From IMG/VR virus record IMGVR_UViG_3300007539_000009, positions 62,001 to 126,000 of that record: a stretch of DNA of 64,000 bases. One strand, given 5' to 3'. The stretch's first letter is position 1. Each line of letters opens with the position of its first letter. The DNA is from a virus. Under the pieces are notes generated by a model. It searched no databases, was not told the origin of the DNA, and saw nothing but the letters and a program-made list of their open reading frames with translations. Position numbers and translations under genes: made by a program. Of this stretch, positions 18,077 to 51,067 are shown one piece after another.

Positions 18077-19023
18077 TATTCAGCCCGGCGCATGTTCTGC
18101 TGGGTTCCAGAGATACTCGAGATGTCCGCGTGCGCTGCGTCGGGCACGACGAACTTCAACGCGTAGCCAGCGGCGGCGATCTCCAGTGTGACCAACGCAC
18201 CACGGACAAGAGGAGCCGCAAAGACCCCATTCTCGTCTACCGTGGTGACGAAGGCGCGATGTTCCTTGAACAAGGATTGCCGTACCAACAGCGGAGTGTC
18301 CTTGTCGTGCACGTAAAAAAGAGGCCGTGCGATTCCATCAGACTGGCCGGTGACATCGACCAGCCGGCCGCTCACAACGCAGATAGGCTCCTCAGTGCGG
18401 TAGGCCGCGACTGTGCTGGTGAGCACCTGCGTGTCGAACTCCGCTGAGCTCGGGCTAGACAGGTCTTGCTCCAGCCGCGAGATCCGGTACTCCACGTTTT
18501 GAGCCGCGCCAGCAGTGCCGTAGTCCGTGACGTCTACGAAGACCGGCCAAACAGAGAAGCCGATGATCGTGTAGTCGGTGACCCCAGGGGCTCTGGATTC
18601 GATCTGGTAACCCGTGATGGGCACGGTGGCTGGCTCCCAGGTCACCACCGTCGATGTGGCCGGGCGTGCCTGGAGCGGGTAGAACGAGTAGGCGTTCCAG
18701 CTCGAGCCATCGGCTAAGGTCGCGTCCTGCCACGTCCAGCGAATGCTGAGCAGCGCGCCAGGGAACAGATCAGAGTCGGAGAGCTCGAGCCCTGTGACCT
18801 CGTAATACGTCCCCTCAGCGTCTGAGAGCTCCGATATCGAGGGATACGGGCTCGTGGGGCTCGAGGGAATAGGCGAGAGACCGGGCGAGTACGTACCGAA
18901 CGTAGGGGCGTACACCAGCTCGCTGAGCTGGTTGTAAACCTCTGCTTCTAAGCCATCTACGGCCTGTCCGACGCCTGCGTCGTCACGGATGCGGAGCGTA
19001 AAGCTCGGCGTAAAATCAACCAC
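18076..19023 (-). CDS. Virion-associated protein with fibronectin-III-like regions, 315 aa
   Basis: The most upstream usable start is GTG at 19023, with GAGG nine bases away; an 18-pair hairpin ends directly before that ribosome binding site. The protein begins MVDFTPSFTLRIRDDAGVGQ and contains a Ser/Pro-rich segment (GTYSPGLSPIPSSPTSPYPS). A fibronectin-III-like section follows (TVVTWEPATVPITGYQIESR ... VEYRISRLEQDLS). The C-terminal part (CVVSGRLVDVTGQSDGIARP) resembles a carboxypeptidase-regulatory or prealbumin-like beta sandwich. It is coupled to the 1,788-residue adhesin downstream, which suggests a shared tail-fibre or baseplate complex. Exact role unknown. Confidence 0.75.
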   Translation of the reverse strand: MVDFTPSFTLRIRDDAGVGQAVDGLEAEVYNQLSELVYAPTFGTYSPGLSPIPSSPTSPYPSISELSDAEGTYYEVTGLELSDSDLFPGALLSIRWTWQDATLADGSSWNAYSFYPLQARPATSTVVTWEPATVPITGYQIESRAPGVTDYTIIGFSVWPVFVDVTDYGTAGAAQNVEYRISRLEQDLSSPSSAEFDTQVLTSTVAAYRTEEPICVVSGRLVDVTGQSDGIARPLFYVHDKDTPLLVRQSLFKEHRAFVTTVDENGVFAAPLVRGALVTLEIAAAGYALKFVVPDAAHADISSISGTQQNMRRAE

Positions 19024-19033
19024 TTGGTACCTC

Positions 19034-19073
19034 GGCGGGACTACACCTGAGTCTCCTCAAGTGTAGACCCGCC
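19034..19073 (-). promoter_or_regulatory. Long 5'-leader hairpin with GNRA loop before the 315-aa gene
   Basis: On the transcribed (minus) strand, GGCGGG, a mismatch, CTACACTTGAG, the loop GAGA, CTCAGGTGTAG, a mismatch and CCCGCC form 17 pairs with one internal mismatch and one wobble. The stem ends ten bases before the GTG start, just before the GAGG ribosome binding site. There is no U-tract after it, so it is not a classical intrinsic terminator. It may stabilise the message, be cut by RNase III or modulate initiation. Confidence 0.75.
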
Positions 19074-19086
19074 AAATGGCTGGCTG

Positions 19087-19332
19087 TCAATTACCGCCTA
19101 GTGGCCCCCGCACAGGAGGCATCACCAGTGCGAGCTTGACCGGCACGAACTCGATCAACGCGTGCTCGTCTTGGTAGTCGAGAGCCTCCTCTAAAGAGGC
19201 AAAGATCAGCGGTGCTGATGAACCTTCAGTGGTCACGCATTTCTCCGCGCCACGCCAGGAGATGTCTGGATAAGGCGAATGCAGTACCCAGCATTCGTAG
19301 TCAATCGTGAGCTTCTTCGTGGCGAACTTCAT
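19087..19332 (-). CDS. Hypothetical protein, 81 aa
   Basis: The frame starts with ATG at 19332 (MKFATKKLTIDYECWVLHSP) and overlaps the end of the SLOG-family gene by 32 bases. Predicted strands at the N-terminus and a short acidic helix (SLEEALDYQDEHALIEF) suggest a small alpha/beta protein. It is the last gene before the intergenic hairpin at 19034-19073. I do not recognise it; a small early or accessory phage protein is the simplest reading. Confidence 0.65.
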   Translation of the reverse strand: MKFATKKLTIDYECWVLHSPYPDISWRGAEKCVTTEGSSAPLIFASLEEALDYQDEHALIEFVPVKLALVMPPVRGPLGGN

Positions 19333-19669
19333 GCACTGTGAGTCCTGCTTGGAGTGCCTGCTTGACGCAGTTCTTGGTACCGGACCCGCCAGGGAACGCC
19401 ACGATTGTGCGCGCGATCCCTAGATCGATCATCTCCTTGTTGCGAATCGGTCCAGCCGCTCGGCCGTGCTTGTCCCAGTCCGCCGGAACGGTGAGGCAGC
19501 GCACAGCGCGATCAGCTGCCCAGACACGGGCAAGATGGTCTGCGCCTTCTGCTCCACCCTGGATAACCATGGTCGGTTTGAGGCGGTCTAGCACTTCGTA
19601 GACGCGGGTGGTGTCGCTGTAGGTGCTACCGCCAGTGACGATGACTGCGTTGTTTCCAGGGTCTTCCAT
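19301..19669 (-). CDS. DUF2493 / YspA-like SLOG-family protein, 122 aa
   Basis: The preferred start is ATG at 19669, just after the stop of the upstream gene; the frame is open for 17 more codons upstream but these overlap that gene. The sequence follows the DUF2493 pattern: VIVTGGSTYSDTTRVYEVLD at the N-terminus, VIQGGAEGADHLARVWA in the middle, then PADWDKHGRAAGPIRN and TIVAFPGGSGTKNCVKQA. The GG-x-EGAD and PGGSGT motifs form the nucleotide-ligand pocket of SLOG Rossmann-like folds. SLOG proteins are thought to bind or process nucleotide-derived ligands, and phage copies are common, but their exact role is unknown. Confidence 0.85.
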   Translation of the reverse strand: MEDPGNNAVIVTGGSTYSDTTRVYEVLDRLKPTMVIQGGAEGADHLARVWAADRAVRCLTVPADWDKHGRAAGPIRNKEMIDLGIARTIVAFPGGSGTKNCVKQALQAGLTVHEVRHEEAHD

Positions 19670-19670
19670 T

Positions 19671-20741
19671 TCAAGCCGGAACAAGGGACTGCTGCACGGT
19701 TTGGGGAGCGTCGAGAACAACTTCGTAGCGTTTGTTTTCGACAGTGGCGGATGAGGGTCCTACCCAGGTGTGCGCTACGAACACCTGGCGAGGCGTGCCG
19801 TCGTGGTTGCGACGATAGCGCTCATGACGAAGAGTCTTCCAGTGCGCTCTGCGCGCATGACCGTGAGTGAGCTGACGGCCAGCCTCACTCGACGCATCGA
19901 TCTTGAATGTCTCTCGGATCTGCTTTCTAGTCAAGAGGGTGTAGTTGGGGCGTTGCCACCCACGGCGGATAGCACCCTTCTTCGGCTTAGAGCCGGTAGT
20001 TGCTTGTGATTTCACCAACCACCGGTCGCCGCTGTTGAGCAGGCAAAGCTCTTCGACTGCTGTGGTAGGGTGGGTGATGAAGTCCTGCCGCGTAGGTGCC
20101 CACCTATCGTTGTCGTCCATCATCTGCTCTTCAGTCAGCGGACGATCAACAATCACGAGGTCCTTTGCGTACATCTGCATACCGAACGGGACGACGCCGA
20201 CTTTGTAGTCCGGCCCGGGGCCATCACCGTCACCTTCCGCCATGCGAAACACGCCGCTAAGGATGTAAGTAGCGCAGCCCCGCAAGTCCCTCCTGTCTGT
20301 GGTGACGCCGTACATGCGCCGAAAGTCTGCCAGGATGTCGGCATCGGCGTCTTTGTCCATGAACCCGTCACCTGTCACGGCCGGCATGAACACTGCGAAG
20401 CCGCGCACGCTGTCCGTGCCGAAGTCGCGCTTCTCTCCTTTCGCAGGAAGCATGTCACTGAGCTTGATACTGCCAGGATCCATCCCCTGACTTCGCGTAG
20501 AGATGTCAAACAGCACCACACACGATCGCCGATCCTCCACCGCTGTCACCGGAAACGGCAACGCGAACATGCTGAAGTCCTGACTGGCGAGCTCTGCCTT
20601 GTGCTTGCGCATCTCCTCGTTGGGGTCGAACTCGAAGTGAAACAGTGATGCTTTGCGCAGCAGCTGCCCGTACTGCTCATCGAGCCGAGAGTGCCATTCG
20701 CAAAGCCGACACGCCTGGTCAAAGATCGGTGTATTACTCAT
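19671..20741 (-). CDS. Hypothetical phage protein with HARRAHW...WVGPS C-terminal motif, about 356 aa
   Basis: The preferred start is ATG at 20741 (MSNTPIFDQACRLCEWHS), which overlaps the previous gene by eight bases (ATGAGTAA); an ATG at 20759 is possible. The N-terminus has two Cys (ACRLCEW). The central part includes RSCVVLFDIST and an acidic loop (MDKDADADILADF). The C-terminal part carries GHARRAHWKTLRHERYRRN and FVAHTWVGPS, an arrangement I have seen in uncharacterised proteins of phages and mobile elements. No catalytic residues can be assigned. It sits at the head of the SLOG gene. Confidence 0.7.
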   Translation of the reverse strand: MSNTPIFDQACRLCEWHSRLDEQYGQLLRKASLFHFEFDPNEEMRKHKAELASQDFSMFALPFPVTAVEDRRSCVVLFDISTRSQGMDPGSIKLSDMLPAKGEKRDFGTDSVRGFAVFMPAVTGDGFMDKDADADILADFRRMYGVTTDRRDLRGCATYILSGVFRMAEGDGDGPGPDYKVGVVPFGMQMYAKDLVIVDRPLTEEQMMDDNDRWAPTRQDFITHPTTAVEELCLLNSGDRWLVKSQATTGSKPKKGAIRRGWQRPNYTLLTRKQIRETFKIDASSEAGRQLTHGHARRAHWKTLRHERYRRNHDGTPRQVFVAHTWVGPSSATVENKRYEVVLDAPQTVQQSLVPA

Positions 20742-20925
20742 CGAGTGCCGCGCAGTCATCAAGTACTTCGGCGAACGCTAGAGCATCTGCGTACGATCCA
20801 TGTAGATTCTTTCCTTTCTGGAGCTTGGCCCAGAACTCTTGTAGTGAGTGCCGCTCGCTTTCTGTTTCGGCACAGAGGTGCAGCACCTCTTCTTCTTGCT
20901 GCTTTTGTGTGCGGATCAGCTTCAC
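20734..20925 (-). CDS. Small helical hypothetical protein, 63 aa
   Basis: The ATG at 20925 overlaps the stop of the Cys-rich gene upstream by four bases. The protein is mostly one long charged helix (MKLIRTQKQQEEEVLHLCAE ... HSLQEFWAKLQKGK) followed by DALAFAEVLDDCAALDE. Low complexity and the lack of motifs prevent a functional call. It is coupled to both neighbours. Confidence 0.6.
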   Translation of the reverse strand: MKLIRTQKQQEEEVLHLCAETESERHSLQEFWAKLQKGKNLHGSYADALAFAEVLDDCAALDE

Positions 20926-21125
20926 GCTAGGTCCTCTCCTCTCTCGATCTTGGTAGCGCAGCTATCGCAGTAGGCGTATTGCGGCAGCAGCTTGACTTTG
21001 CGCTGGCAGCCTTCGCAAGTCTTCTCGACTGACTCCTGAGCGACGCGGTCGTAGAACTCCTGCATGTCAGGATCGTCCATGTCAGCCCAGTGGCCGAAGT
21101 TGTCGTCGTAGTAAACGCCAGACAT
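20922..21125 (-). CDS. Small zinc-ribbon-like protein, 67 aa
   Basis: An acidic, aromatic N-terminus (MSGVYYDDNFGHWADMDDPD) is followed by two CxxC pairs, CEGCQRKVKLL and YCDSCATKIERG, spaced like a zinc ribbon. The ATG at 21125 has a good GGAGC ribosome binding site (AAGGAGCAACATG), and the gene is the first after the terminator at 21178-21205, so it probably heads its own translation unit. Small zinc-ribbon proteins in phages often bind nucleic acid or host proteins, but nothing here identifies the target. Confidence 0.75.
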   Translation of the reverse strand: MSGVYYDDNFGHWADMDDPDMQEFYDRVAQESVEKTCEGCQRKVKLLPQYAYCDSCATKIERGEDLA

Positions 21126-21177
21126 GTTGCTCCTTGGTTTGTAACGAACGCGGACAAACTACTCATGACACAAAAGA

Positions 21178-21205
21178 AGCCCGCACTACCGAAGCAGTAC
21201 GGGCT
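21178..21205 (-). terminator. Intrinsic-terminator-like hairpin with UUCG loop
   Basis: On the minus strand AGCCCGTACTGC pairs with GTAGTGCGGGCT around a TTCG loop (12 pairs, two of them G-U). It is followed by TCTTTTG. The C(UUCG)G loop and the U-rich tail are classical. It lies after the 94-residue gene and 52 bases before the next ATG. Confidence 0.85.
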
Positions 21206-21223
21206 CTTATCACAGCGTGGAAG

Positions 21224-21508
21224 TTACTCAGTGGGCGGCCAGGCGTCCGGGATCTCTACCGACTTCTGCTGCGCTTGCATCGCAGCCTGACAGTAGAGGC
21301 CGAGCGCGCGCATGATCGCAGCGCTGGTGCGCGCGTCCATCGAGATGTGAGAGCGTGTGCCTTCCGCGCTCTCGTAGACCAAGCAGATCTGCATCTCACC
21401 TTGGTCTCGATCCATGCCAACAAGCGTGTAGGCGAGATCCTCGCTCGTGATGGAATCCATGCAGAAGCCGGTGTCGATGTCGGCCTCGTCTTCAAAAGGG
21501 TATTGCAT
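21224..21508 (-). CDS. Hypothetical protein, 94 aa
   Basis: ATG at 21508 is preferred over the GTG two codons upstream, because GGAG lies five bases before it. The protein (MQYPFEDEADIDTGFCMDSI) has an acidic N-terminus, a strand-rich middle (YTLVGMDRDQGEMQICLVYE) and a C-terminal helix (SAAIMRALGLYCQAAMQAQQ). This is consistent with a small alpha/beta fold. I do not recognise it. The intrinsic terminator directly downstream suggests it ends a transcription unit. Confidence 0.7.
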   Translation of the reverse strand: MQYPFEDEADIDTGFCMDSITSEDLAYTLVGMDRDQGEMQICLVYESAEGTRSHISMDARTSAAIMRALGLYCQAAMQAQQKSVEIPDAWPPTE

Positions 21509-21545
21509 TGTCACTCCGTGGTAGACCCCTGACGGTGAGACTATG

Positions 21546-21830
21546 TTAGCGCTCGCGTTGCGCTACCGAGCCCTTCTCCTTGATAGGTTCTTCTACTCGC
21601 ACGTAAGTGTCGAGCGTCTCTCGTATTGCGCGAACAGCGCAGTCTCTGGATGACGAGAGCCGGAACGCTGTGGTCTGTAGGAAGTCCTTGGGCCGACGGA
21701 TGCGGAACGTGACGGTGTAGTCCACCTCTGCCTCATCCTCGAGCGCATCGATGCCGTTGTGCTTGATGTCCAGCACTTCACCGGAGATGATCGTCACTTG
21801 ATGCGGCCGGCTAGGAGTCTCTTCAGTCAT
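21546..21830 (-). CDS. Hypothetical protein, 94 aa
   Basis: The start overlaps the stop of the 304-residue virion-like gene (TGATG). The N-terminal half is strand-rich (HQVTIISGEVLDIKHNGIDA ... VDYTVTFRIRRPKDF), and the C-terminal half ends in a helix with several charges (CAVRAIRETLDTYVRVEEPI). No motif is recognised. It could be an accessory protein co-expressed with the upstream virion-like gene. Confidence 0.7.
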   Translation of the reverse strand: MTEETPSRPHQVTIISGEVLDIKHNGIDALEDEAEVDYTVTFRIRRPKDFLQTTAFRLSSSRDCAVRAIRETLDTYVRVEEPIKEKGSVAQRER

Positions 21831-22744
21831 CAGTTCGTCGGGTAGAGAAGCTGGATCTCGTCACCAGCCTCGAGAAGACGCCGGTCTTGCGTGAACGTGA
21901 TAGACAACCCATCACCGGCGATCGTGTAGTCAATCCCACTGACCAGGGCCGCACCGTTCTGGAAGACCAGCATGGTGGCAGCCACCGTCACAGCGGGGTT
22001 GATGTCTATGGCTACATCCTGCCCTGAGCTCCCCAGGCCAAGCAAGCTCCCAGGCACACATCCTTCGATCTTGTTCCAAACCTGCCCGCTGACTGAAGAT
22101 GCGTCCAGCCGCTGGCCCAGGCTCTGCCCGATGTAGAGGAAGCCGGTGAACCAGAAGTCAGAGCCCTCCGGCACACCTACCTCGTACGGGTCGTCCTTGG
22201 TGAACACCAGGATGCCGGTGCTCGGATCCCACAGCGGACCAGCCGGGTGGTCAGGTAGCAGCTCACCACCGAAGCGAGGCGACGGTGTGCCGTACCACAG
22301 CTGCGCAGCGTATGTCTGACCTTGGCTGTTCTCTTGTGGGTTATCACCGTCCACCCACGAGTCCAAGAAGCCTACGCCTGGATCTTGTGTAGCAAGAGGC
22401 GGAGTAAGGACAGACGCGCCTGTGACAGCGATCCAGCCCCGGTTGTCGGGGACACTAGGGATCTGTACGAGCTTGAGCCCGCTGTTCGGCGGATCTGAAG
22501 TGTCGCCATAGCGCCGTACAAGCGAAGTCGTTCCTCCATTGATCAAAGCTGGCGCAGGGATCTCCAACTCCTCACCAACAGTTTGATACGCACTGACAGT
22601 TACGTGGCTAGGTAACGACGTGGTGCCACCAGCCGGCGCAGGATCCTCACCAGGGAAGAAAACCTCAGAGAGGTGCGCCTTGTTTAGCAGTCGTTTAACT
22701 GCCCATGACAGCCACGCCTCTTGCTGATTAGTAAACGTCGCCAT
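21830..22744 (-). CDS. Virion-like protein, paralogue of the gene at 41042-41941, 304 aa
   Basis: ATG at 22744 (MATFTNQQEAWLSWAVKRLL) is chosen because the paralogue starts with the same MATFT. Shared blocks in order include PGEDPA, LPSH, VPSVPDNR-WI, PGVGFLDSWVDG, NGQTY/SQGQTY, HPAGPLWDPSTGIL and the end Y-IAGDGLSIT-TQDRRLLEAGD. The beta-rich, Pro/Gly-rich sequence looks like a virion structural protein. The C-terminal block (VFQNGAALVSGIDYTIAGDG) resembles beta-sandwich repeats in phage fibre proteins that describe a value then an offset. Exact location in the particle is unknown. Confidence 0.75.
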   Translation of the reverse strand: MATFTNQQEAWLSWAVKRLLNKAHLSEVFFPGEDPAPAGGTTSLPSHVTVSAYQTVGEELEIPAPALINGGTTSLVRRYGDTSDPPNSGLKLVQIPSVPDNRGWIAVTGASVLTPPLATQDPGVGFLDSWVDGDNPQENSQGQTYAAQLWYGTPSPRFGGELLPDHPAGPLWDPSTGILVFTKDDPYEVGVPEGSDFWFTGFLYIGQSLGQRLDASSVSGQVWNKIEGCVPGSLLGLGSSGQDVAIDINPAVTVAATMLVFQNGAALVSGIDYTIAGDGLSITFTQDRRLLEAGDEIQLLYPTN

Positions 22745-22768
22745 CACAAGCAATCAAATAGAGATAGC

Positions 22769-23998
22769 TCAGCAGTTCCACTTGTCGAGCGCAAGCTTCT
22801 TCCGCGTCGGTTTGCCGCTCTTGTCGTGCATCGGCCCCGGCATCCCGCCCATCCGTGCACAGAAGCTCTTGCGCCTCTTGTCCTCGCTTGAGCCCGGCTT
22901 GATCTTGCTCGGGTCCTTGGTAACCGCCATCTTAAGCTTGCTGCCTGGATTAGCTTCTCGATACGACTGAACACCTTTGCGGTTCAGCCCGCCCGTCTTG
23001 CTCTTGCCTTCGCTGCGAGTCCATGCAGGTGTCTCCGACGCTTGTTTCTTGAGCTTGCGCTTACGCTCTTTCGCCTCTTCGCCGCCTGCGTGGCCGTCTA
23101 TGAGCGACTTGGAGGCGTAGATGTCGGTGCGGCGTGCGGCGATCTTCTGCAGCTCGTCCTCGAAGCCACGAAGCATCGCTGTCTTGGCCACGTGCGCGTT
23201 GTCGATCCAGTTGGGGTAGGGCCGACCGTTAGCTGCAGCGCGTGCTTTTGCTCGAGACTTCTGCTCGGGCGTCAGCGTCTTGCTCTTACCTTTGGCTTCC
23301 TTCGGGTTCTTCTTGTCCCAGGGAGCCTCCTCAGCCGCTTTGAGCATCCCGCCGCCAGTGAGAGAGCCGGCAGCTCGGCTGGTGATGTTGTTGCTGCTCA
23401 ACGTGTTACGTAGGTGGTTCGGGGCACTGACTTGACCCATCATCGGCTTCGGCGGCTTGTTCATCTGCATCGACCTTATCGGCTTGAGCGAAGGCGGCTT
23501 CGGCAGCGCCTTGAGCATACTGAGAACTGCAGCTGCTTTCACCAGCCGACCGTCAGCTGCGACGCCCGGGGGTCGGGCAGTAGTGTCTTTCTTCACGCGA
23601 CTTGCGTACCTGCCTGCGGCGTAGATCAGCCCGGCAACAGCAGCACCTTTGATGGCGTTGTTGCGAGCGCTGTTGCGAATAATTTTGAGCCCAGCTTTCC
23701 CCAAGTCTTGTGCACCTTGGTTGTAGCTAGATGAGATTCGGGCGCGAGTACTAGGGGAACCGGCTAAGTACTGCGAGCGCATTGCGGGGTCAGTCTTGAT
23801 TGCCTTAGCAACAGCCCGTGACGCTCCCGACCAGCGAGCTGATTGGCCCGCTTGACGCGCCACCTTGCTGTCAAGACCTTGCAGGCCCTTGGTGATGTTG
23901 TCGGCCGCACGACGGAGACCCTTGTAGTAGCCTCTTACTGCGCCGAGGGCCGCACCGGTGATTACGACCTCGCCATATCGCTTAGCTCGATCACTCAC
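22769..23998 (-). CDS. Basic protein with DUF6321-like C-terminus, 409 aa
   Basis: The N-terminal half has a possible hydrophobic helix (NAIKGAAVAGLIYAAGRYAS, about 113-132) within Arg/Lys-rich sequence. Residues near 245-275 read KSRAKARAAANGRPYPNWID, a motif common in phage DNA-associated proteins, followed by FEDELQKIAARRTD. The last ~90 residues (TGGLNRKGVQSYREANPGSK ... KRRKSFCARMGGM ... LDKWNC) closely match the DUF6321 pattern. Net charge is strongly positive. A DNA-binding or packaged virion protein is plausible. It is coupled by ATGA to the 1,538-residue adhesin upstream. Confidence 0.75.
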   Translation of the reverse strand: MSDRAKRYGEVVITGAALGAVRGYYKGLRRAADNITKGLQGLDSKVARQAGQSARWSGASRAVAKAIKTDPAMRSQYLAGSPSTRARISSSYNQGAQDLGKAGLKIIRNSARNNAIKGAAVAGLIYAAGRYASRVKKDTTARPPGVAADGRLVKAAAVLSMLKALPKPPSLKPIRSMQMNKPPKPMMGQVSAPNHLRNTLSSNNITSRAAGSLTGGGMLKAAEEAPWDKKNPKEAKGKSKTLTPEQKSRAKARAAANGRPYPNWIDNAHVAKTAMLRGFEDELQKIAARRTDIYASKSLIDGHAGGEEAKERKRKLKKQASETPAWTRSEGKSKTGGLNRKGVQSYREANPGSKLKMAVTKDPSKIKPGSSEDKRRKSFCARMGGMPGPMHDKSGKPTRKKLALDKWNC

Positions 23999-30003: not shown

Positions 30004-30004
30004 G

Positions 30005-35791: not shown

Positions 35792-35821
35792 AGCGCCCGA
35801 CCATTGCGGTGGCCGGGCGCT
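35792..35821 (-). terminator. Intrinsic-terminator-like hairpin with U-tract
   Basis: On the minus strand AGCGCCCG pairs perfectly with CGGGCGCT. A small inner CCA/TGG pairing lies in the 14-base loop, and TTTCTTTTAC follows directly. It sits between the 53-residue gene and the ATG at 35759, 32 bases before that start. Confidence 0.85.
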
Positions 35822-35831: not shown

Positions 35832-35993
35832 TCAAACGAGGCGCTTCACAACTTCGTCCTGTTTCTCAGGGTCAGCCGCGTCCCGTCGGAGCTTTCCAGC
35901 CTCGATCATGGACGCTACCAGCTGATCCCTGAACGCTAGGGCCTGGGACCATTGTGCCGATTCAGACCACATCCCGGCATGGGGACTACTCAT
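35832..35993 (-). CDS. Small helical hypothetical protein, 53 aa
   Basis: The start ATG at 35993 overlaps the stop of the coiled-coil gene by eight bases (ATGAGTAG), which decides the start; a longer version would extend deep into that gene. The protein is a single helix-rich chain (SAQWSQALAFRDQLVASMIE, then DPEKQDEVVKRLV). It ends shortly before an intrinsic terminator, so it closes this transcription unit. Not recognised. Confidence 0.6.
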   Translation of the reverse strand: MSSPHAGMWSESAQWSQALAFRDQLVASMIEAGKLRRDAADPEKQDEVVKRLV

Positions 35994-36659: not shown

Positions 36660-36693
36660 GAGGGGATACAGGACTCATGCCCCATATCCCCTC
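36660..36693 (-). terminator. Terminator-like hairpin before the 118-aa gene
   Basis: Minus-strand GAGGGGATA pairs perfectly with TATCCCCTC across a 16-base loop. Pyrimidine-rich sequence (TCTCTTACTCCTTTGCTTTT) follows and runs into the AGGAG ribosome binding site of the next gene, 30 bases from its ATG. The loop is long, so termination may be partial. Confidence 0.7.
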
Positions 36694-39345: not shown

Positions 39346-39373
39346 TGCAGTAAAGAAGAAAGGGGTAAAGGGT

Positions 39374-39407
39374 GCGGGTACGTGTGACTTATGCCACATG
39401 CACCCGC
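39374..39407 (-). terminator. Terminator-like hairpin before the 87-aa gene
   Basis: On the minus strand GCGGGTGCATGTG pairs with CACACGTACCCGC (13 positions, one mismatch and one wobble) around the loop GCATAAGT. A pyrimidine-rich stretch (ACCCTTTACCCCTTTCTTCTTTAC) follows, and the next ATG is 28 bases beyond the stem. Confidence 0.75.
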
Positions 39408-39969: not shown

Positions 39970-39991
39970 GAGAGCCACGTGTGTGGCCCTC
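39970..39991 (-). terminator. Short intrinsic-terminator-like hairpin
   Basis: Minus-strand GAGGGCCAC pairs with GTGGCTCTC (nine pairs, one wobble) around ACAC, then TTTCC. The U-run is short, so efficiency may be low. It ends the unit containing the 84-residue gene and lies 52 bases before the next start. Confidence 0.7.
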
Positions 39992-40260: not shown

Positions 40261-40285
40261 AATGTTCCTCTGCTGGGGGAAGCGG

Positions 40286-40329
40286 AAAGTGCCGGCTGCA
40301 TACCACGTTGGTACACAGGCCGGCACTTT
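40286..40329 (-). terminator. Perfect 11-bp nested hairpin before the GTG-start gene
   Basis: AAAGTGCCGGC and GCCGGCACTTT are perfect inverted repeats, with a 22-base loop that contains a second small stem (TACCA/TGGTA). On the minus strand only TTT is available as a tail, ending in CCGCTTCC, so it is not a strong classical terminator. It lies 25 bases before the GTG start. Confidence 0.75.
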
Positions 40330-40774: not shown

Positions 40775-40775
40775 T

Positions 40776-41941: not shown

Positions 41942-41958
41942 ACCCTCAGTGTCTTGGC

Positions 41959-42351: not shown

Positions 42352-42380
42352 ACACCCAGTGTTGGCTAAAGAAAGAACAG

Positions 42381-42419
42381 AGGGCTCTCCCACTCGCGAC
42401 GAGCGAGTGAAAGAACCCT
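42381..42419 (-). terminator. 17-bp hairpin with pyrimidine-rich tail
   Basis: On the minus strand AGGGTTCTTTCACTCGC pairs with GCGAGTGGGAGAGCCCT around a five-base loop; three G-U wobbles appear only in RNA of this strand. CTGTTCTTTCTTTAG follows. The stem ends 29 bases before the ATG of the 26-residue peptide. Confidence 0.75.
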
Positions 42420-42468
42420 CATAGATCTCATGCCAGGACGGTGACCCTTCCGAAACGGTACGACGACA

Positions 42469-42645
42469 TCAATCCCTCCATCCTTGGCCGTGGAACAGAT
42501 GGCGGCACCGATGGGCGAAGACACTCCACAGCAACCCCACCAAGGTATTTGCAGAGTAGCTTCCTTCCGCCACCACTAGGTGATAGCGGTACTCGCGGGT
42601 GTTGAACGGCTGCCTCTTGTACAGCTCCTGACTTACCTCATCCAT
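42469..42645 (-). CDS. Candidate small hypothetical protein, 58 aa
   Basis: ATG at 42645 overlaps the stop of the 137-residue gene by eight bases (ATGGATGA), a pattern repeated elsewhere in this cluster. The protein (MDEVSQELYKRQPFNTREYR, then YHLVVAEGSYSANTLVGLLW) has an aromatic N-terminus and a hydrophobic helix-like centre, and ends in a His/Arg-rich tail. It lies just upstream of the hairpin at 42381-42419. No family is recognised. Confidence 0.5.
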   Translation of the reverse strand: MDEVSQELYKRQPFNTREYRYHLVVAEGSYSANTLVGLLWSVFAHRCRHLFHGQGWRD

Positions 42646-43968: not shown

Positions 43969-44204
43969 TGTTCTGATTGCGGTGGTCGAACTGCTGGCCG
44001 CTTAGGTGCACCTAACGTTGCATCCGCAGCATCCTGAGCTTTTCGTAGCGTAGAGAGCGCATGCTCCAGTTCGACCACACGCCTTAGCAGTCGTACGCTT
44101 GCTGAGATCGTGCGCACCTGTCGCCTGATCACGTGGTTATCCACGATCAGCCACACAGCAAGCAGCACAAGCACAACCAGCACCCATACCTGAGGATCAT
44201 CCAT
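43965..44204 (-). CDS. Membrane protein with TM and coiled coil, i-spanin-like candidate, 79 aa
   Basis: A hydrophobic N-terminal helix (WVLVVLVLLAVWLIVDNHVI) is followed by a basic coiled-coil segment (VRTISASVRLLRRVVELEHA, then ALSTLRKAQDAADATLG) and a Pro-rich tail. This order, N-terminal signal-anchor then periplasmic coiled coil, is the layout of the inner-membrane spanins of double-membrane hosts. No o-spanin lipobox protein is evident next to it, so the assignment is tentative. Coupled to its neighbours by TGATG and ATGA overlaps. Confidence 0.6.
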   Translation of the reverse strand: MDDPQVWVLVVLVLLAVWLIVDNHVIRRQVRTISASVRLLRRVVELEHALSTLRKAQDAADATLGAPKRPAVRPPQSEQ

Positions 44205-44449
44205 CAGCTCACAGCCTCAGCAGGTTCGATGAGCTGCAGCAGGACCTTGATGTCCTTGCCCTCTTTGATGGCTGTCTTGAGTGCGTACAGCTCATCAGCC
44301 AAGGCATCGCGCTCCTTTTCAGCGTCGATGCAGCGCTGCTTGAGGTGTTCGAAGTTCTTCATGCCCAATGCCAGATTCTGCTGTGCTTCAGTAAGCGACA
44401 GAAGGACTTGGCGGTGGTGCTGGGCAGCGGTGGCGGGATATTGCTTCAT
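44204..44449 (-). CDS. Coiled-coil hypothetical protein, 81 aa
   Basis: Nearly the entire chain can form a coiled coil (HHRQVLLSLTEAQQNLALGM, then EHLKQRCIDAEKERDALADE, LYALKTAIKEGKDIKVLLQL). It has no membrane segment or known motif. The stop overlaps the following spanin-like start by one base. It may oligomerise with a partner. Confidence 0.7.
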   Translation of the reverse strand: MKQYPATAAQHHRQVLLSLTEAQQNLALGMKNFEHLKQRCIDAEKERDALADELYALKTAIKEGKDIKVLLQLIEPAEAVS

Positions 44450-44455
44450 GGATGG

Positions 44456-44917
44456 TTACTGTTCGGGTTCGTCTACACCGAGGACAGGCTGCCGTCCGAA
44501 CCAGTCAAGCTGCGGTGTCTTGTACGTGCTTGCGACGTCACGACGTTCCAAGCTGTCGAGCATGCCGTACGCCGCAGCGCGCACTCGCATGCTATCCTCG
44601 GTCTCGTAAACTCCGCGACAATGCGTGACCACTTGCTGCACCGCGTCACGAAGATTGGACTCAGTGCTGTGCGTGATCACGTAATCGTCTTGATCGATCA
44701 GGATCCGACCTTCACCGGTGATCCTGTACTTGCCGTGCTTGTTGCGCTCGGCGAGCCACAGGTCTTCAAGCCTGCGGCACCACGGTTGAGCCCAGGATCC
44801 GGGCGAACGCACTGAGCACATGTGCTCGAGCTTCCTGCCTATCTCTGTCGGCGACATGAACACTTCCTCTTTGGCGAGCAAGTGCAGAATCTGGTGCATG
44901 GGGAGAGTTAGCCGCAT
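44456..44917 (-). CDS. Winged-helix-like DNA-binding protein, 153 aa
   Basis: The N-terminal ~65 residues form a helix-turn-helix with wing: MHQILHLLAKEEVFMSPTEI, GRKLEHMCSVRS as the likely recognition helix, then RRLEDLWLAERNKHGKYRIT, which reads as the wing strands. The C-terminal part is a charged helical domain (STESNLRDAVQQVVTHCRGV). It follows the terminator at 44937-44959 by 19 bases, and AGGTATACAACATG supplies a weak ribosome binding site. Likely a transcriptional regulator; its targets are unknown. Confidence 0.65.
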   Translation of the reverse strand: MRLTLPMHQILHLLAKEEVFMSPTEIGRKLEHMCSVRSPGSWAQPWCRRLEDLWLAERNKHGKYRITGEGRILIDQDDYVITHSTESNLRDAVQQVVTHCRGVYETEDSMRVRAAAYGMLDSLERRDVASTYKTPQLDWFGRQPVLGVDEPEQ

Positions 44918-44936
44918 GTTGTATACCTAAAGAAAT

Positions 44937-44959
44937 GGCCGAGGCGTGAGGCCCCGGCC
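44937..44959 (-). terminator. Intrinsic-terminator-like hairpin with U-tract
   Basis: On the minus strand GGCCGGGG pairs with CCTCGGCC (eight pairs, one G-U) around CCTCACG, followed by ATTTCTTTAG. It lies between the acidic-tail gene and the winged-helix gene, 19 bases before the latter's ATG. Confidence 0.8.
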
Positions 44960-44964
44960 GCGTA

Positions 44965-45399
44965 TCAAAGATCGTCGAGCTCGTCCACGAGGTCATCTAC
45001 TGCCGCGCTGATCACAGCGGCAAGCTCCTCGTCTTCCTCATCCTCCTCATCCTCGATCTCGATGTCCTCGCGTGCAGGGATGCGTGTGGCGTGGCCGTGC
45101 TCTTCGAGCTGCACGTTCACCAGGTCAATGGTCTTGTCCCAGAGCTGCAAGAAGCGCTTGCCATCTTTGACAATGCTCTGCGGTTCCTGGTCTACGAGCC
45201 AACGCAGCTGCGTGTTGATGGCATTGGTGATCGCTGACTTCCAGTTGCTGTGGTACGCGTGATCACGCCACACCTCTTCACCTTCGTTGGTGAGTGCGCT
45301 GCGTGTGATCACGATTTGGTGCTTATCACACTTGAACCCGACCTTGAACACGTAGTCGTCGGGGTAGTCAACTCTCTTCGGTCGTCGTCCCTTGGGCAT
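44965..45399 (-). CDS. Hypothetical protein with hyperacidic C-terminal tail, 144 aa
   Basis: The N-terminus is basic (MPKGRRPKRVDYPDDYVFKV), followed by a strand-rich region (CDKHQIVITRSALTNEG) and a helix (AITNAINTQLRWLVDQEPQS). The last ~35 residues are hyperacidic (EDIEIEDEEDEEDEELAAV ... DDLVDELDDL). Such tails occur in DNA mimics and histone-like partners, but also as solubility tails. Overlaps the 83-residue gene by 32 bases. Not recognised. Confidence 0.7.
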   Translation of the reverse strand: MPKGRRPKRVDYPDDYVFKVGFKCDKHQIVITRSALTNEGEEVWRDHAYHSNWKSAITNAINTQLRWLVDQEPQSIVKDGKRFLQLWDKTIDLVNVQLEEHGHATRIPAREDIEIEDEEDEEDEELAAVISAAVDDLVDELDDL

Positions 45400-45619
45400 C
45401 CTGTACTTCTCCGATAATGGCAGGTTCTTTGAAACGATCAGCGATGGCCTGAGTGGGGACCATGACGTTGATCACACGAATGGGCTCTCGGTACTGCGCG
45501 CGCACCTCTTGCATGTAGATCTCGAAGGTACCCTCGCACTTAGAGATCAACGATTCGTCATACACACGCACAGGCTTGATGGTGCCGAACTCGGCGGCAA
45601 ACACGATACGTAGATTCAT
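45368..45619 (-). CDS. Hypothetical protein, 83 aa
   Basis: Strand-rich N-terminus (MNLRIVFAAEFGTIKPVRVY), a helix in the middle (TFEIYMQEVRAQYREPIRVI), then another strand (VINVMVPTQAIADRF). Its ATG overlaps the last codon of the exonuclease reading frame as ATGA, which supports the extended reading of that frame. Not recognised. Confidence 0.7.
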   Translation of the reverse strand: MNLRIVFAAEFGTIKPVRVYDESLISKCEGTFEIYMQEVRAQYREPIRVINVMVPTQAIADRFKEPAIIGEVQDAQGTTTEES

Positions 45620-45912
45620 GGCTTCGGGCCGTACAGGAAGTGATGAGCGCGTTGCGCCCAGCCTTCAGGTGGCTCAAACGGGCCGCGTCGAGCTTCGGCC
45701 CAGGCTTCTGGTTGTGTCTTTCACCACGTCATGGTTGCCTTGTCTTGTGTGGCACCAGACAGTGGCTGAAGGCGTGCGCAGTAGTTGGCGGTCTCCTCTA
45801 CCGCATCGGGGTAGATGCGCATCTCGACTAATGCGCACGAGAGCATCGAGTGATCACCCGGACGCGGGCCGTCGGACTCGATGTCAAGGAAGACCCACCG
45901 CTGGTCAAACAA
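45616..45912 (-). pseudogene. DEDD-family 3'-5' exonuclease remnant with in-frame UGA, 98 codons
   Basis: The N-terminus RWVFLDIESDGPRPGDHSML has the exonuclease D-x-E-x-DGP motif (motif I, DIESDGP), followed by CARLQPLSGATQDKATMTW. The frame then hits TGA at 45723-45721 and continues in frame with KTQPEAWAEARRGPFEPPEG to a stop that overlaps the next gene's ATG. Relatives have Trp-Trp at this place, so TGG has become TGA. The frame lacks an ATG (the first start is TTG at 45912) and lacks exonuclease motifs II and III, so it is probably degraded. Readthrough or sequencing error are alternatives. Confidence 0.65.
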
Positions 45913-45974
45913 CGAGTCGCTCGTGTTGTCGCCTAGTAGGTATAAAGAACGGTCAGCTTACTTATGCCACGTCC

Positions 45975-46328
45975 TCAAACAGCTCTGGCGTAGCCCCGCC
46001 ACGCAGCTGCCTTGAGAAAGTGATCTTGAGCATTTTCCACATTTCCGTCGTTGTCGACTTTTGAAAAATCGTGGTGCCCTTTGACGTGCTGGTTGAGGAA
46101 CTTGCCTTTGCTCTTCGCACCCATCATCTGTGTGTGCTTGTGCTTAGGCACGTTGTCGTACTCGTACACGCCGCCGCTGTTGAAGCGCACCGTCATGGCC
46201 CTGCGCTCGGGCTCGTACTTCACCGCCTCGATGTTCGAGGACTGCACGTTCTCGAACTCGCCTTTGGGGGCAGTGCTGCGGCGAAAGTAACCGCGAGCCC
46301 AGTCAATGATCCCTGCTTGTTTCTGCAC
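45975..46328 (-). CDS. KTSC-domain protein, 117 aa
   Basis: The middle matches the KTSC pattern: FENVQSSNIEAVKYEPERRA, MTVRFNSGGVYEYDNVPKHK, then KSKGKFLNQHVKGHHDFSKV. KTSC is a small beta-rich domain of unknown function, common in phages and named after its conserved residues. A short helix (IDWARGYFRRS) precedes it and a helical tail follows. The start is GTG at 46328 with no strong ribosome binding site. It opens the interval in front of the exonuclease remnant. Confidence 0.8.
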   Translation of the reverse strand: MQKQAGIIDWARGYFRRSTAPKGEFENVQSSNIEAVKYEPERRAMTVRFNSGGVYEYDNVPKHKHTQMMGAKSKGKFLNQHVKGHHDFSKVDNDGNVENAQDHFLKAAAWRGYARAV

Positions 46329-46331
46329 GGA

Positions 46332-46925
46332 TCAAAGGTAGCGCATCACCCAGTTGCGGCTGTCGTCGACCTGCGCTAACACCTTGCGGCCACCCACTGA
46401 GCGCAGCAGGATGCCGTCACCGTTGCCGAGGCCCTCGAAGGCGATGTTATCACCCTGGTCCTGCACCACAACCTTCTCGCGCAGCTCCGCAGGCACGGAT
46501 GTGTGCGGGATCTCGAACAGGAAGGAGAACAAGTTCTCTGAGAGGCTCGTGGAGTAGGTCACGATGCGCACCTGCGTGCTCGAGACCTCTTCGTAGTGCA
46601 GGTAAGACGGCACTGCCAAGAAGCTAGGATCCTGGATCGTGGTGTCCCTGTCCAGGATGCGCAGCCAGTGGTTGATGCCGCCCGTCACTTTTCGCAATGA
46701 CACCTGCAGCTGGTTGATACCGACTAAGTAGCTGAAGGTGTCGAGGGTGACCAGGTAGTTGCCTGACCCCTCATCGACGACGTTGGTCGCTGAGTCGAGC
46801 CGGATGATCTCCCGTTTGCCTGCTTCTGACCCTAAGAAGCGCGAGGCGTCAGCGTTGGTGCTGACCTTGTCGTAGAAGCCTGACAGCTCCTGTGTGCCGG
46901 CTCGTTGCGGTTGGATAATGCTCAT
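46332..46925 (-). CDS. Virion-associated hypothetical protein, 197 aa
   Basis: Starts MSIIQPQRAGTQELSGFYDK and is strand-rich throughout (NYLVTLDTFSYLVGINQLQV, QVRIVTYSTSLSENLFSFLF), with a C-terminal block (GDGILLRSVGGRKVLAQVDD) typical of phage structural beta-proteins. TGATG-coupled to the 779-residue fibre gene. The sequence suggests a fibre tip, chaperone or baseplate component, but I cannot place it. Confidence 0.75.
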   Translation of the reverse strand: MSIIQPQRAGTQELSGFYDKVSTNADASRFLGSEAGKREIIRLDSATNVVDEGSGNYLVTLDTFSYLVGINQLQVSLRKVTGGINHWLRILDRDTTIQDPSFLAVPSYLHYEEVSSTQVRIVTYSTSLSENLFSFLFEIPHTSVPAELREKVVVQDQGDNIAFEGLGNGDGILLRSVGGRKVLAQVDDSRNWVMRYL

Positions 46926-49264
46926 CAGATCAGCCCGCCGGTGTAGCGAACAAAGACTTCCCAGTCGACGTCGATCACTGCCAACCCAGAAGAGGCAGCA
47001 AACGCGGTAATCAGCACGCTGTCCGAATCAGCGACGTACGAGATGTCGCCCACGTTGGTGGACCGGTTGGCCTCGGCCACCTGCGCAGTGCGTGCTACCA
47101 GCTCTCCTAGCGTGGCTTCCTTGCGTGTGCCCAGCTGCTGGCCCAGACCGAGGGTTGCACCCTCAGTCGCGTTCTGCGTGGCGTACGCACGTCCACGCTC
47201 GGTGTACCCGCGCAGCGTTGCGATGCCCTCTGGCGCCTTGGTGAACGGGAGCACGGTGTACGAACCTACCGATGCTCGAGCGTTCCACACCGTGTGCGTG
47301 ACCGTGGCCGAAGCGCCGATCAGCACGTAGTACAGACCGATCTGATCCACGTCAGGACCGACAGTGACGTCTGTAGTGGTGTAGAGCTCGCCTGTTGTTT
47401 GCTGAGCAAACGACTCGACCTTGTTCTTGAGCGCTAGCTCACCGCCGACTCTGGTGTACTGCGCAATGCCGATACCCAAGGCAGCAGCCGCGCTGGTTTC
47501 AAAGTTGGTGGCAAACGTGATGGAACGCCCATTGAGCTCGAACGCCGCAGGTATGCGGTACTCAAAGATCAGTCGCTGACCATCGCCTTCAACCGTGGTG
47601 AGCTTTAGCGCAGTGCTCGCGTCGTTGTCTGTCGTAGCTCGCGTGATGCGCTTGACCGTGTCGCCTGAGACGCCAGGGCCAAACTCAGTCACCTGCCAAC
47701 CATCAGCGAGGTTGGGCTCGTCCTGCACCTCACTGACTACAAACGACAGGTCGTTTTGGGTGGCGAGGTCAGGCAGTGAACCACCTGACGTGTAACGCGA
47801 CCAGTAGTAGAAATTGCCGTTGGCGATCAGGTTGCGCGTGGCGCTGTTGCGCAGCGACTCGATACCAAGCTCACCCACCGTGGCAGCGTTGAGCACGTTG
47901 CCGTCCAGGTTGATCAGCACGCCAAGGCTAAAGAGCTTGGCCACCTTGTTGATGAACCCACCCGTAGGTACACGCAGACGCAGGTAGAGCTTCTTCGCGC
48001 CGCTGTCAGGGACGCGCACGATCTCACCAGGCCGGTACGTCTGAGACGTGAACCCGGCTGTAGGGCTACTCGTGGAGTACTGGAAGCGCAAACCGCTGAA
48101 TGCAGTGTCTGCGCTCACGCAGAAGTGCTGAACCTTGGTGATAGTTGACCCGGACAGCAGATCAGCCGTGGTGATAGCGACTGTCTCAGTAGGTAGCGAA
48201 CCACCGCCTGTCCACGTGATCTTGAGCGACGTGTCCGTTGAGTCGATCGTGGCGGTGAGGTCAGAGCTGTCTTCAGCCTCAGCAAGCTCGACTGTGTTGA
48301 GCTCGATCAGCTCGTCGTCCTTGAACTGAATAACGTGCAGGCTCGAGAACACAGAGTCAGCCAGCCAGTCCTTGTAGTCGTCTACCTCAACGCGGCTGGC
48401 CAGTCGGCGAGCAAACGGCACGCGGATGTCCTCGAGTTCCACAAGGCGGACTGAGGCGTCTGTCTTGCGTGCTAGGACAATCGCTACGGGCAGCACGTCC
48501 ACAGAGAGGTCCGGCAGGTCTGCTTTGGTAGCTGCTTCACCTACGAACGACACCAGGCCCTCATCAGTCACACCAACGAGGTAGTAGCGCTCTTCGTTAG
48601 CTGTGAACGAGTTGGCGTCCAAGATGTCGGTGTAGCCGCCGTCAAACCGGATGATCTCGGTGCCATCGACGTTCGCCATGACGCCTGCGTACACGAACAG
48701 GCGGCGGTTGTCGTTGGGGTCGATCTCAGGCTTGAGTGCTGCAACGTCTACAGGTGAGCTGAGCCACCTAGCCTTGGGCACATGCAGCACGTCAGTGGCG
48801 AGCACCTGCGCAGAAGCAGAGCCAGCGAACGCGGACTGCGGCCGGATCGTGACGTAGGCCAGAGGGATCTGGAAGTCGCTCTGCGTCGTAGGCGCAACCG
48901 CTGCAGTGGAGAGGTTTGTCTGGTTCCTGCCCTTGATGACGCGATAAGTCTGCTTGACATCAGATGAGGCGGAGAACTGATACTCAGCCACCACCAGGTC
49001 AATGCGCGTCAGTGCAGCGTCAGCCGGCTCAACAGCCACGGCTGCCAAGATGTCCGTTGACTCCTTAATGACCACGCCCTCTGTCGTGGCCAAGATGCTC
49101 ACCCCATCACCCCCGCGCGTGATGTCAAGCAGGTTGGTCTGCCCTGGGTTCGGGCGAACGCGATAGCCTGCGTACACGCCGGGGTCGATGATGCCCACAA
49201 AGCGCTGGTTCTGCAGCGCTGAGGTATCGAGGGCGTGGAACGCAGTTGTGATCGTCTGGGTCAT
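46925..49264 (-). CDS. Large tail fibre protein, 779 aa
   Basis: The N-terminal domain (FVGIIDPGVYAGYRVRPNPG, then DITRGGDGVSILATTEGVVI and IDLVVAEYQFSASSDVKQTY) is the type seen at the start of phage fibre proteins, with an 'AL-RIDLVV' strand. The central part is beta-rich. Near residue 480 LIANGNFYYWSRYTSGG resembles the N-termini of the CPPGF paralogues, and the stretch after it is like a carbohydrate-binding sandwich. A helical C-terminus (TLGELVARTAQVAEANRSTN) may trimerise. Likely a host-recognition fibre. Confidence 0.8.
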   Translation of the reverse strand: MTQTITTAFHALDTSALQNQRFVGIIDPGVYAGYRVRPNPGQTNLLDITRGGDGVSILATTEGVVIKESTDILAAVAVEPADAALTRIDLVVAEYQFSASSDVKQTYRVIKGRNQTNLSTAAVAPTTQSDFQIPLAYVTIRPQSAFAGSASAQVLATDVLHVPKARWLSSPVDVAALKPEIDPNDNRRLFVYAGVMANVDGTEIIRFDGGYTDILDANSFTANEERYYLVGVTDEGLVSFVGEAATKADLPDLSVDVLPVAIVLARKTDASVRLVELEDIRVPFARRLASRVEVDDYKDWLADSVFSSLHVIQFKDDELIELNTVELAEAEDSSDLTATIDSTDTSLKITWTGGGSLPTETVAITTADLLSGSTITKVQHFCVSADTAFSGLRFQYSTSSPTAGFTSQTYRPGEIVRVPDSGAKKLYLRLRVPTGGFINKVAKLFSLGVLINLDGNVLNAATVGELGIESLRNSATRNLIANGNFYYWSRYTSGGSLPDLATQNDLSFVVSEVQDEPNLADGWQVTEFGPGVSGDTVKRITRATTDNDASTALKLTTVEGDGQRLIFEYRIPAAFELNGRSITFATNFETSAAAALGIGIAQYTRVGGELALKNKVESFAQQTTGELYTTTDVTVGPDVDQIGLYYVLIGASATVTHTVWNARASVGSYTVLPFTKAPEGIATLRGYTERGRAYATQNATEGATLGLGQQLGTRKEATLGELVARTAQVAEANRSTNVGDISYVADSDSVLITAFAASSGLAVIDVDWEVFVRYTGGLI

Positions 49265-49618
49265 CTAATCTTCTACCAGGGCGGTCCACACGAGGTGCAT
49301 GAACATACCCCATTCTGGGCCGTGGGGGCGCAGTCTCCCTGATTCCGTGCCCCACCCAAGCGCGTGCGCCCACTCGTGCGCAATGACGTGCTGTAGGGCA
49401 TCTGTGTGGAGGTTGCGGTCAATGACCATCCTGAACTTCTTCGGATTGCCGTTCTCGTCAAATAGCAGATGGAGGTACGCCTGGTTGTCCTTTCCAGGAT
49501 TCCCAGTGCGTACCTCCACGGGCACGATCGGCGGTAGCTCTAAACGCAGGATGCGCAGGAACTCTCGCAGCTTCTTTCGCCCGTAAGGGCTACTAAGCAG
49601 CTTGTTCTCCGTCTCCAC
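49265..49618 (-). CDS. SprT-like zinc metalloprotease, 117 aa
   Basis: The helix ALQHVIAHEWAHALGWG holds the zinc-binding motif HEWAH (residues 81-85), and a later HGPEWG supplies the third ligand, His 99, as in SprT-like and related minimal metallopeptidases. The N-terminal part (RKKLREFLRILRLELPPIVP) leads into a strand (YLHLLFDENGNPKKFRMVID). A role in maturation or in degrading host proteins is possible; the substrate is unknown. Overlaps the phosphoesterase gene by 26 bases. Confidence 0.8.
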   Translation of the reverse strand: METENKLLSSPYGRKKLREFLRILRLELPPIVPVEVRTGNPGKDNQAYLHLLFDENGNPKKFRMVIDRNLHTDALQHVIAHEWAHALGWGTESGRLRPHGPEWGMFMHLVWTALVED

Positions 49619-50690
49619 CAGCGAGCCCGTAGGTGAGGAAGATGGGCATATCAGCGATCATGCCGTGCTTCGCATTGAAGAACTGAAGTCGCTGGCGCGG
49701 AGTGGTGGAGCTGGAGAGCCTCTCTAGTGCATAGTCGTTGTCCGACTCAGTAGTGCCGTTGCAGAACCACCAGCGTCCGTTGAGGTCGCCCTGCTTGTAG
49801 ACGTGGAAGTGGCCGAAGTAGAGGTTGTCCCACGGCTCTCGAATGGAGTCGCGCCAACCCATCATCTGACGAGCGAACGCCGGTCCGCCGATCATCCCTC
49901 GGATCTGATGTCCGTGGATCATCAGGTTGGTAGTGTTGAACACCGTGTCCAGCGCGTAGAAGCTCGGAGGGATGTTGAACGTGACGCGCTCCAACGTGTC
50001 AGCTCGCTGGTTGACTTCGGTGCCGTGCACCATCATCCGCACGATCTCATAGCAGACCGTGTCCCAGTTGGTCTCTGGGTGCGACCCTGAGTGCTTAGAG
50101 GCCGGGCGGCCGTGGTTGCCAGCCACGCAGACCACGTGGATCTTCTCGACCACTGACAGCAGCGAGACGATCACCTCTGTGATCGCGTACGGCACGTCAC
50201 GGACACTCTGCTTGATGACGCTGGTGTCGATCAAGTGTGGCTGGTGCGGGAAGATGACCTCACCTTCCACCATGTCACCACCCAGGTAGAGCCGAAGCTC
50301 TTTGATGGTGGCCATCGACTTCCGCAGCTCTATGATCTTCGCTGTCTTACTGGCCAGCTCTTTCAGCCGGCCGATCCCGATAGCGGTGTCGTATGTCTCA
50401 GTGATCTTACCCATCTGGGTGTCACTGATGTGCAGCACCGGGACCTCCTCGTCACCTTTCCCGTGCTTCTTGGGTTTAGGTACCGATATGCGCGGCAGAT
50501 CCTCGTCAAAGGCTTCCTGCACAGCACCCAGCACAATAGAAGCGCCCCGACCTGCGACTGTGAGTCGCTGCCGCAGGCTGGCATTCTCTTTCTTTAGGAC
50601 CCTGATCTCTTCGGTGTCATCGCGGTGCTGAGCAGAGGCCCACTGCTGTACGTCGAAGTCGTCAATCTCCTCCGGCTCACTACTGGCCAT
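49593..50690 (-). CDS. Calcineurin-like metallophosphoesterase, 365 aa
   Basis: Metal-binding motifs appear in the expected order: SDTQMG (D90, with Gln where His is usual), GGDMVEG (137-143), GNHGR (191-195), HGHQ (259-262) and GHFH (293-296). The N-terminus has DFDVQQWASAQ and a coiled coil (VLKKENASLRQRLTVAG). These enzymes hydrolyse phosphate esters of nucleic acids or nucleotides; phage copies often act in DNA processing. The substrate cannot be inferred. The N-terminal segment is matched by the next gene upstream. Confidence 0.88.
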   Translation of the reverse strand: MASSEPEEIDDFDVQQWASAQHRDDTEEIRVLKKENASLRQRLTVAGRGASIVLGAVQEAFDEDLPRISVPKPKKHGKGDEEVPVLHISDTQMGKITETYDTAIGIGRLKELASKTAKIIELRKSMATIKELRLYLGGDMVEGEVIFPHQPHLIDTSVIKQSVRDVPYAITEVIVSLLSVVEKIHVVCVAGNHGRPASKHSGSHPETNWDTVCYEIVRMMVHGTEVNQRADTLERVTFNIPPSFYALDTVFNTTNLMIHGHQIRGMIGGPAFARQMMGWRDSIREPWDNLYFGHFHVYKQGDLNGRWWFCNGTTESDNDYALERLSSSTTPRQRLQFFNAKHGMIADMPIFLTYGLAGGDGEQAA

Positions 50691-51012
50691 CGATCTGCTC
50701 CCACAGCTTCGGCTCGCACTGCTTCATGTGCCTCTTCAGGGTGCTGATGCTACGCTCGAAGTTGAACTGCCGCTTTAGCATCTGATACGTAGCTTCGATC
50801 CCTGCTTGAGATTCCCCGCTAGCACGCAGCTCCATGATCCGGCGAACGACCGGCACGATGTCAGGCCGATCGCAGACGCTGCAGCGGTGAGGGCGAGAGC
50901 GCGAGGAGGGCTGCTCTTTAGCCCACTGCTCTACGTCGAAGTCTTCTGTTGACTTCTTGGACCGACGCTTAGCCGCCGGTCGTGCTTTCTTGGCGCGCTT
51001 CTTAGTGACCAT
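50680..51012 (-). CDS. Cys-containing helix-turn-helix-like protein, 110 aa
   Basis: The N-terminus is very basic (MVTKKRAKKARPAAKRRSKK), followed by EDFDVEQWAKEQ, which resembles DFDVQQWASAQ in the phosphoesterase. Then comes HRCSVCDRPD and a likely helix-turn-helix (SQAGIEATYQMLKRQFNFER, ISTLKRHMKQCE). The Cys pair and the later Cys could form a zinc site. It might be a DNA-binding partner of the phosphoesterase, or a small terminase-like protein; neither is demonstrated. It overlaps that gene by 11 bases. Confidence 0.7.
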   Translation of the reverse strand: MVTKKRAKKARPAAKRRSKKSTEDFDVEQWAKEQPSSRSRPHRCSVCDRPDIVPVVRRIMELRASGESQAGIEATYQMLKRQFNFERSISTLKRHMKQCEPKLWEQIDGQ

Positions 51013-51016
51013 AGCT

Positions 51017-51067
51017 CTTTGGTAGTGTTAGAGACCCCGGACACTGCGAGTGTGCCCACTACCAAAG
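51017..51067 (-). promoter_or_regulatory. Perfect 11-bp nested hairpin directly before the 110-aa gene
   Basis: CTTTGGTAGTG and CACTACCAAAG are perfect inverted repeats enclosing 29 bases that hold a smaller ACACT/AGTGT stem. On the minus strand the outer stem ends only four bases before the ATG, so the weak AAGAG ribosome binding site is partly inside it. No U-tract follows. A translational switch or processing site is more likely than a terminator. Confidence 0.75.

Follow-up and report, generated by a model that had tools for sequence, protein, structure and literature searches.

We infer that transcription stops at eight of ten hairpins that lie shortly ahead of start codons in an uncultivated phage (those at 21178, 35792, 36660, 39374, 39970, 40286, 42381 and 44937; Table 1), which are probably factor-independent terminators ending the preceding transcription units. 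The window analysed comprises 64,000 nucleotides (bases 62001-126000 of a 183,184-base IMG/VR virus record), and its minus strand carries all of its called genes. The curated gene set consists of 62 consecutive minus-strand genes between 435 and 51668, with the start of one small ORF near 35965 uncertain, and genome-wide checks covered the window plus four 20-kb flanking stretches of the same record (144 kb). The hairpins are most likely routine punctuation rather than a new kind of signal, since lambda, phiKZ, T4 and other phages share the arrangement. An earlier note on this DNA had offered attenuators, RNase III sites, stabilising 5' structures and signals for the phage polymerase as explanations, and omitted the plainest one, namely that the preceding unit has its 3' end there.

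The position of the hairpins relative to the genes carries much of the argument. Among the 61 junctions, a listed hairpin is present in 10 of the 13 intergenic gaps of at least 45 nt and in none of the 48 shorter or overlapping junctions; very short gaps are too small for any hairpin, and the per-gap shuffle test given below is the fairer test of significance. The hairpins mark the breaks between tightly coupled gene runs and are not scattered leaders, and their placement in nearly every break resembles that of operon-end terminators; by this gap distribution they stand where a gene or operon has its 3' end, as is expected of intrinsic terminators. The distance from the preceding stop codon has a median of 16 nt, which is typical of intrinsic terminators, as these mostly lie less than 50 bp from the stop (PMC4824070), and six hairpins, five of which belong to the eight with pyrimidine tails, begin 4-18 nt past the stop codon. 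This occupation of nearly all real gaps, in several cases so soon after the preceding stop, had been missed before. The three gaps of at least 45 nt that contain no listed hairpin are located at 20763-20921, 45620-45720 (within an interrupted exonuclease-like frame) and 45913-45974.

Two reading frames were observed in passing. The exonuclease-like frame (45600-45980, minus strand; FLDIESDGPRPGDHSMLSCALVEMR) has an in-frame TGA at 45721-45723, stays open for about 34 codons beyond it, has no ATG start (ACG or TTG) and gave no Pfam match for its first part. A 13-codon ORF at 42428-42470 (minus strand; MSSYRFGRVTVLA) with an SD-like GGAGGG lies just before the 42380 hairpin and, judged by eye, may encode a leader peptide.

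Table 1. Hairpins upstream of start codons, and the polymerase gene of the same window. Hairpins are named in the text by their first coordinate (42380-42420 also as 42381).
Feature	Coordinates	Strand	Stop to hairpin (nt)	Hairpin to start (nt)	Tail	Gap z	Remarks
Hairpin	19034-19073	-	13	10	none (3/10 pyrimidines)	-7.0	-32.4 kcal/mol on minus strand; follows stop of 19087-19332, precedes GTG start of 18076-19023; RBS-proximal class
Hairpin	21178-21205	-	18	52	TCTTTTGTGT	-2.9	terminator-like; UUCG loop; d-score +7.2
Hairpin	35792-35821	-	10	32	TTTCTTTTAC	-2.4	terminator-like; d-score +29.9
Hairpin	36660-36693	-	4	30	TCTCTTACTC	-4.8	terminator-like
Hairpin	39374-39407	-	37	28	ACCCTTTACCCCTTTCTTCTTTA	-3.6	long C-rich pyrimidine tail; low E. 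coli-type score
Hairpin	39970-39991	-	14	52	TTTCCGCCTT	-2.6	terminator-like
Hairpin	40286-40329	-	76	25	CCGCTTCCCC	-3.4	strong (-30.5); C-rich tail; GTG start; low E. coli-type score
Hairpin	42380-42420	-	49	29	TGTTCTTTCTTTA	-4.1	strongest terminator-like (-32.3); start of a 26-codon ORF
Hairpin	44937-44959	-	5	19	ATTTCTTTAG	-3.4	terminator-like
Hairpin	51017-51067	-	49	4	none (5/10 pyrimidines)	-1.4	long-range hairpin; RBS-proximal class
Gene	884-8050	-					fused beta-beta' multisubunit RNA polymerase, 2388 aa; Pfam; NMDFDGD motif

The coordinates of the ten hairpins and all ten start-codon distances given earlier were reproduced exactly. When the whole gaps were folded and compared with 200 dinucleotide shuffles each, nine of the ten folded better than nearly all shuffles, with z values between -2.4 and -7.0 that are near or beyond what chance allows. 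The exception is 51017-51067, whose gap (51013-51116) is within chance, with 16 of 200 shuffles folding equally well. Nine of the ten accordingly form a stable, GC-rich stem-loop in the RNA of the transcribed strand. In every case the RNA of the minus (coding) strand folds more stably than that of the plus strand (10/10, sign test p = 0.002; for example -25.6 on the minus and -16.8 on the plus strand at 36660, and -29.4 and -21.3 at 42381), because the asymmetric pairs are G-U pairs in the coding-direction RNA; this strand bias speaks for structure in the RNA rather than for a DNA hairpin or a palindrome bound by protein. A strict hairpin scan of the minus strand of the window returned 13 stems, eight of them listed hairpins, where shuffles averaged 5.0 and reached 9 at most; the eight lie within 1.2 kb of gaps of at least 45 nt, while a simple terminator scan of 33-53 kb gave 17 hits against 12.5 +/- 3.6 in shuffles, an overall excess that is not significant. 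The hairpins had no match in Rfam, and the search for a sequence common to them yielded GGCATRAGT in two hairpins and one gap, a count equalled in 6 of 100 shuffles. No homologous gaps in which to follow covariation were found: the viral contigs gave close relatives of the hairpin-region proteins from the same virus alone, and the closest relatives whose sequence was compared were without hairpin-region genes.

The statement that several hairpins have pyrimidine tails is borne out by eight of the ten, in which 7-9 of the 10 bases after the stem are pyrimidines (p about 1e-5 relative to coding composition). The hairpins thereby fall into two classes, the tailed eight at 19-52 nt from the start codon, and 19034 and 51017, which are untailed and lie over the ribosome site, at 10 and 4 nt. 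Truly T-rich tails are present in about five of the ten. The E. coli-type d-score is clearly above zero for 21178 and for 35792, the highest of the ten, and close to zero for 44937, 39970 and 36660. Elsewhere it is negative, as the T tract is broken up by C; the tails of 39374 and 40286 are C-rich with few T. Such scores often miss phage sites, as in Listeria phage CKA15, where 13 of 66 mapped termination sites were called intrinsic (PMC12282133).

At the tailed eight, the GC-rich stem would form in the nascent RNA and the polymerase would pause and be released at the pyrimidine-rich, partly U-rich stretch after the stem. In so compact a genome the following gene starts just 19-52 nt beyond the hairpin, and its transcripts would come from read-through, from short promoters within or close to the gap, or from both. 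Most of the eight are probably leaky, given their C-interrupted tails and the distance of 4-18 nt from the stop at five of them. In AR9, a phage with multisubunit RNA polymerases, strong termination was observed at predicted terminators (PMC5312081). The UUCG loop of the 21178 hairpin also occurs in terminator-like stems of the flanking stretches.

It had been argued that there is little room for a promoter between hairpin and gene, so that complete termination would silence the gene, a consequence that is not forced. In E. coli, translating ribosomes suppress intrinsic terminators near the stop codon; for tR2 placed 5 nt past the stop the efficiency drops from ~90% to <10%, and the repression is gone beyond about 27 nt (PMC4824070). 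The six hairpins that begin 4-18 nt past the stop are thus within the range of suppression. The late promoters of AR9 span about 12 nt (AACA-N6-TA/G; PMC5312081), and promoters of that length would fit into 19-52 nt. In a kayvirus, finally, a promoter directly follows a terminator that has hardly any effect in the late phase of infection and is then read through (PMC7698491). The same short stop distances, the tR2 repression and the kayvirus precedent speak for a possible if rather tentative refinement of the terminator reading, namely that the hairpins are conditional terminators or attenuators governed by the ribosome trailing on the upstream gene, with the downstream gene on only during upstream translation. 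However, four hairpins lie 37-76 nt from the stop, neither alternative antiterminator folds nor conserved leader peptides have been demonstrated, and compact genomes often have a short spacing between stop and hairpin without any regulation.

Of the ten hairpins, 19034 and 51017 are the main ones for which a regulatory or stabilising 5' role is plausible. These two are better read as possible leader structures that affect translation, as they are untailed, close to the start and pair much of the SD region (probability of being unpaired 0.24 and 0.18), with the putative SD (AAAG) of 51017 inside the 3' arm, 4 nt ahead of the ATG of 50680-51012; the latter hairpin, being within chance, may also be a chance structure. 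Initiation can be helped by pyrimidine tracts ahead of an SD, which would suit a more general role in which stabilising, standby or repressor hairpins govern the decay of the downstream mRNAs or the access of ribosomes to them. For the ten as a whole such a role is unlikely, since the other eight lie beyond most of the ribosome footprint and end in a terminator-like tail. RNase III processing between genes, as in T7, would fit the paired RNA within the intergenic gaps of polycistronic units, yet it is extremely unlikely and finds no support here: the stems are mostly 9-17 pairs long and only that of 40286 reaches about 20, whereas classical RNase III sites span roughly two helical turns (about 20 bp or more), and pyrimidine tails have no role in such processing.

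The hairpins may be read by the polymerase of the host or by the fused polymerase of the phage, which is a possible candidate for this role. The latter joins homologues of RpoB and RpoC in a single chain, and near its C terminus there is a weak Peptidase_M23 match (E 3.6e-6, just under the curated cut-off). Its nearest relatives among viral contigs, with the same virus excluded, are 44-48% identical, and megablast against phages and plasmids gave no match, so that no described phage is close in DNA. One sigma-like ORF is present in the record, outside the window. A 3506-aa ORF at 53093-63613 (minus strand) has no Pfam match; it was checked as a tape-measure-fused polymerase like that of P23-45 (PMC10770324) and rejected, as it has no DxDGD motif.

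With regard to signals specific to the phage polymerase, hexamer enrichment, a sense-versus-antisense test and an EM search revealed no polymerase-specific motif. The search of this genome for a promoter motif of the downstream genes returned just SD-like and pyrimidine words, nothing clearly above shuffles. No sigma70 promoter was recognised in the gaps: TATAAT is absent from the 144 kb, and promoter-like sites are below the shuffle expectation. One could still imagine that the tail motif (C/T)TTTA(C/G), placed just behind the hairpin, serves the phage polymerase as a short promoter element, which would make each gap a composite of terminator and promoter. CTTTTA occurs 11 times in the 144 kb, 6 times in gaps, and TTTTAC-like words recur in gaps of two viral relatives (G005 and L029), free of hairpins in L029. 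This idea is nevertheless quite improbable, being weakened by the same TTTA after the stem in phiKZ and lambda terminators; the tail motif, moreover, does not belong to the words that exceed the antisense control in this genome, did not emerge from the motif search above, and is missing at 21178, 39970 and 40286. Its extension, in which the gaps are composite marks for the fused beta-beta' polymerase and the tail doubles as the next promoter with a strength set by translation of the preceding gene, we regard as highly improbable.

Several short words were noted in the gaps of this and other viruses. TTTACTGC follows a T-rich run in gaps of three viruses with related polymerases (L029 at 6039 and 25625, L067 at 4598, and the window at 39351, minus strand); in L029 it stands without evident hairpins, and it is a possible promoter word. 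L072 has eight tRNA genes at 4181-5383 (plus strand), two of them tRNA-Asn (gtt), and CTTTTAC ends 1-2 nt before the first Asn gene. In the relatives L009 and L013, CTTATGCC/GGCATAAG are repeated in intergenic gaps far above their coding frequency, and in Salmonella phage Arash (L077) about half of the gapped genes are preceded by GGTATAAG, a possible late promoter whose frequency is a little higher than in shuffles.

A wider scan, which had been proposed as a check, found the same architecture elsewhere in this genome. Counting codirectional gaps of 35-160 nt with one simple gene caller throughout, a sense hairpin is present in 12 of 32 gaps over the five stretches, compared with 4/16 in the relative G005 (RNA polymerase 44% identical), 6/14 in lambda, 10/23 in a phiKZ stretch, 4/20 in T4, 4/13 in Arash and 3/10 in RHph_Y65, counts that are descriptive, as antisense hairpins are also frequent in some phages. 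In lambda (e.g. D/E and E/FI, 21-22 nt before the start) the stem likewise comes soon after the stop, has a T/C-rich tail and separates codirectional genes, with the following start about 20-30 nt from the stem; the stems of lambda are less stable (-11 to -18) and their T tails purer, whereas those described here reach -32 with C-interrupted tails. The terminators of phiKZ (UUCG loops, GGGCTTTAT tails) and the operon terminators of AR9 are alike as well and belong to phages with multisubunit RNA polymerases. In phiKZ the hairpin also dominates the region ahead of the next gene, where the strongest motif is the 3' arm plus tail of the terminator (GGGG.gcTtTAT), but its sequence is stereotyped and its median distance from the start is 62 nt, unlike the hairpins of the window, which share no common sequence. 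The kayvirus pair t97/p98 (PMC7698491) has a terminator directly before the next gene, the one read through late, and a known promoter, p98, while no promoter was found here and the terminators are recognised from sequence. The tR2 reporter (PMC4824070) shares the position a few nucleotides past the stop, and for the present hairpins repression is predicted from distance only.

If the terminator reading is correct, it would provide an operon map for an uncultivated phage with a single-chain multisubunit RNA polymerase. The gene block at 19-51 kb would be split into units by the hairpins, so that the transcription of such phages would become predictable from sequence, and the hairpins would offer terminators for testing whose distance from the stop codon varies in steps (4-76 nt).
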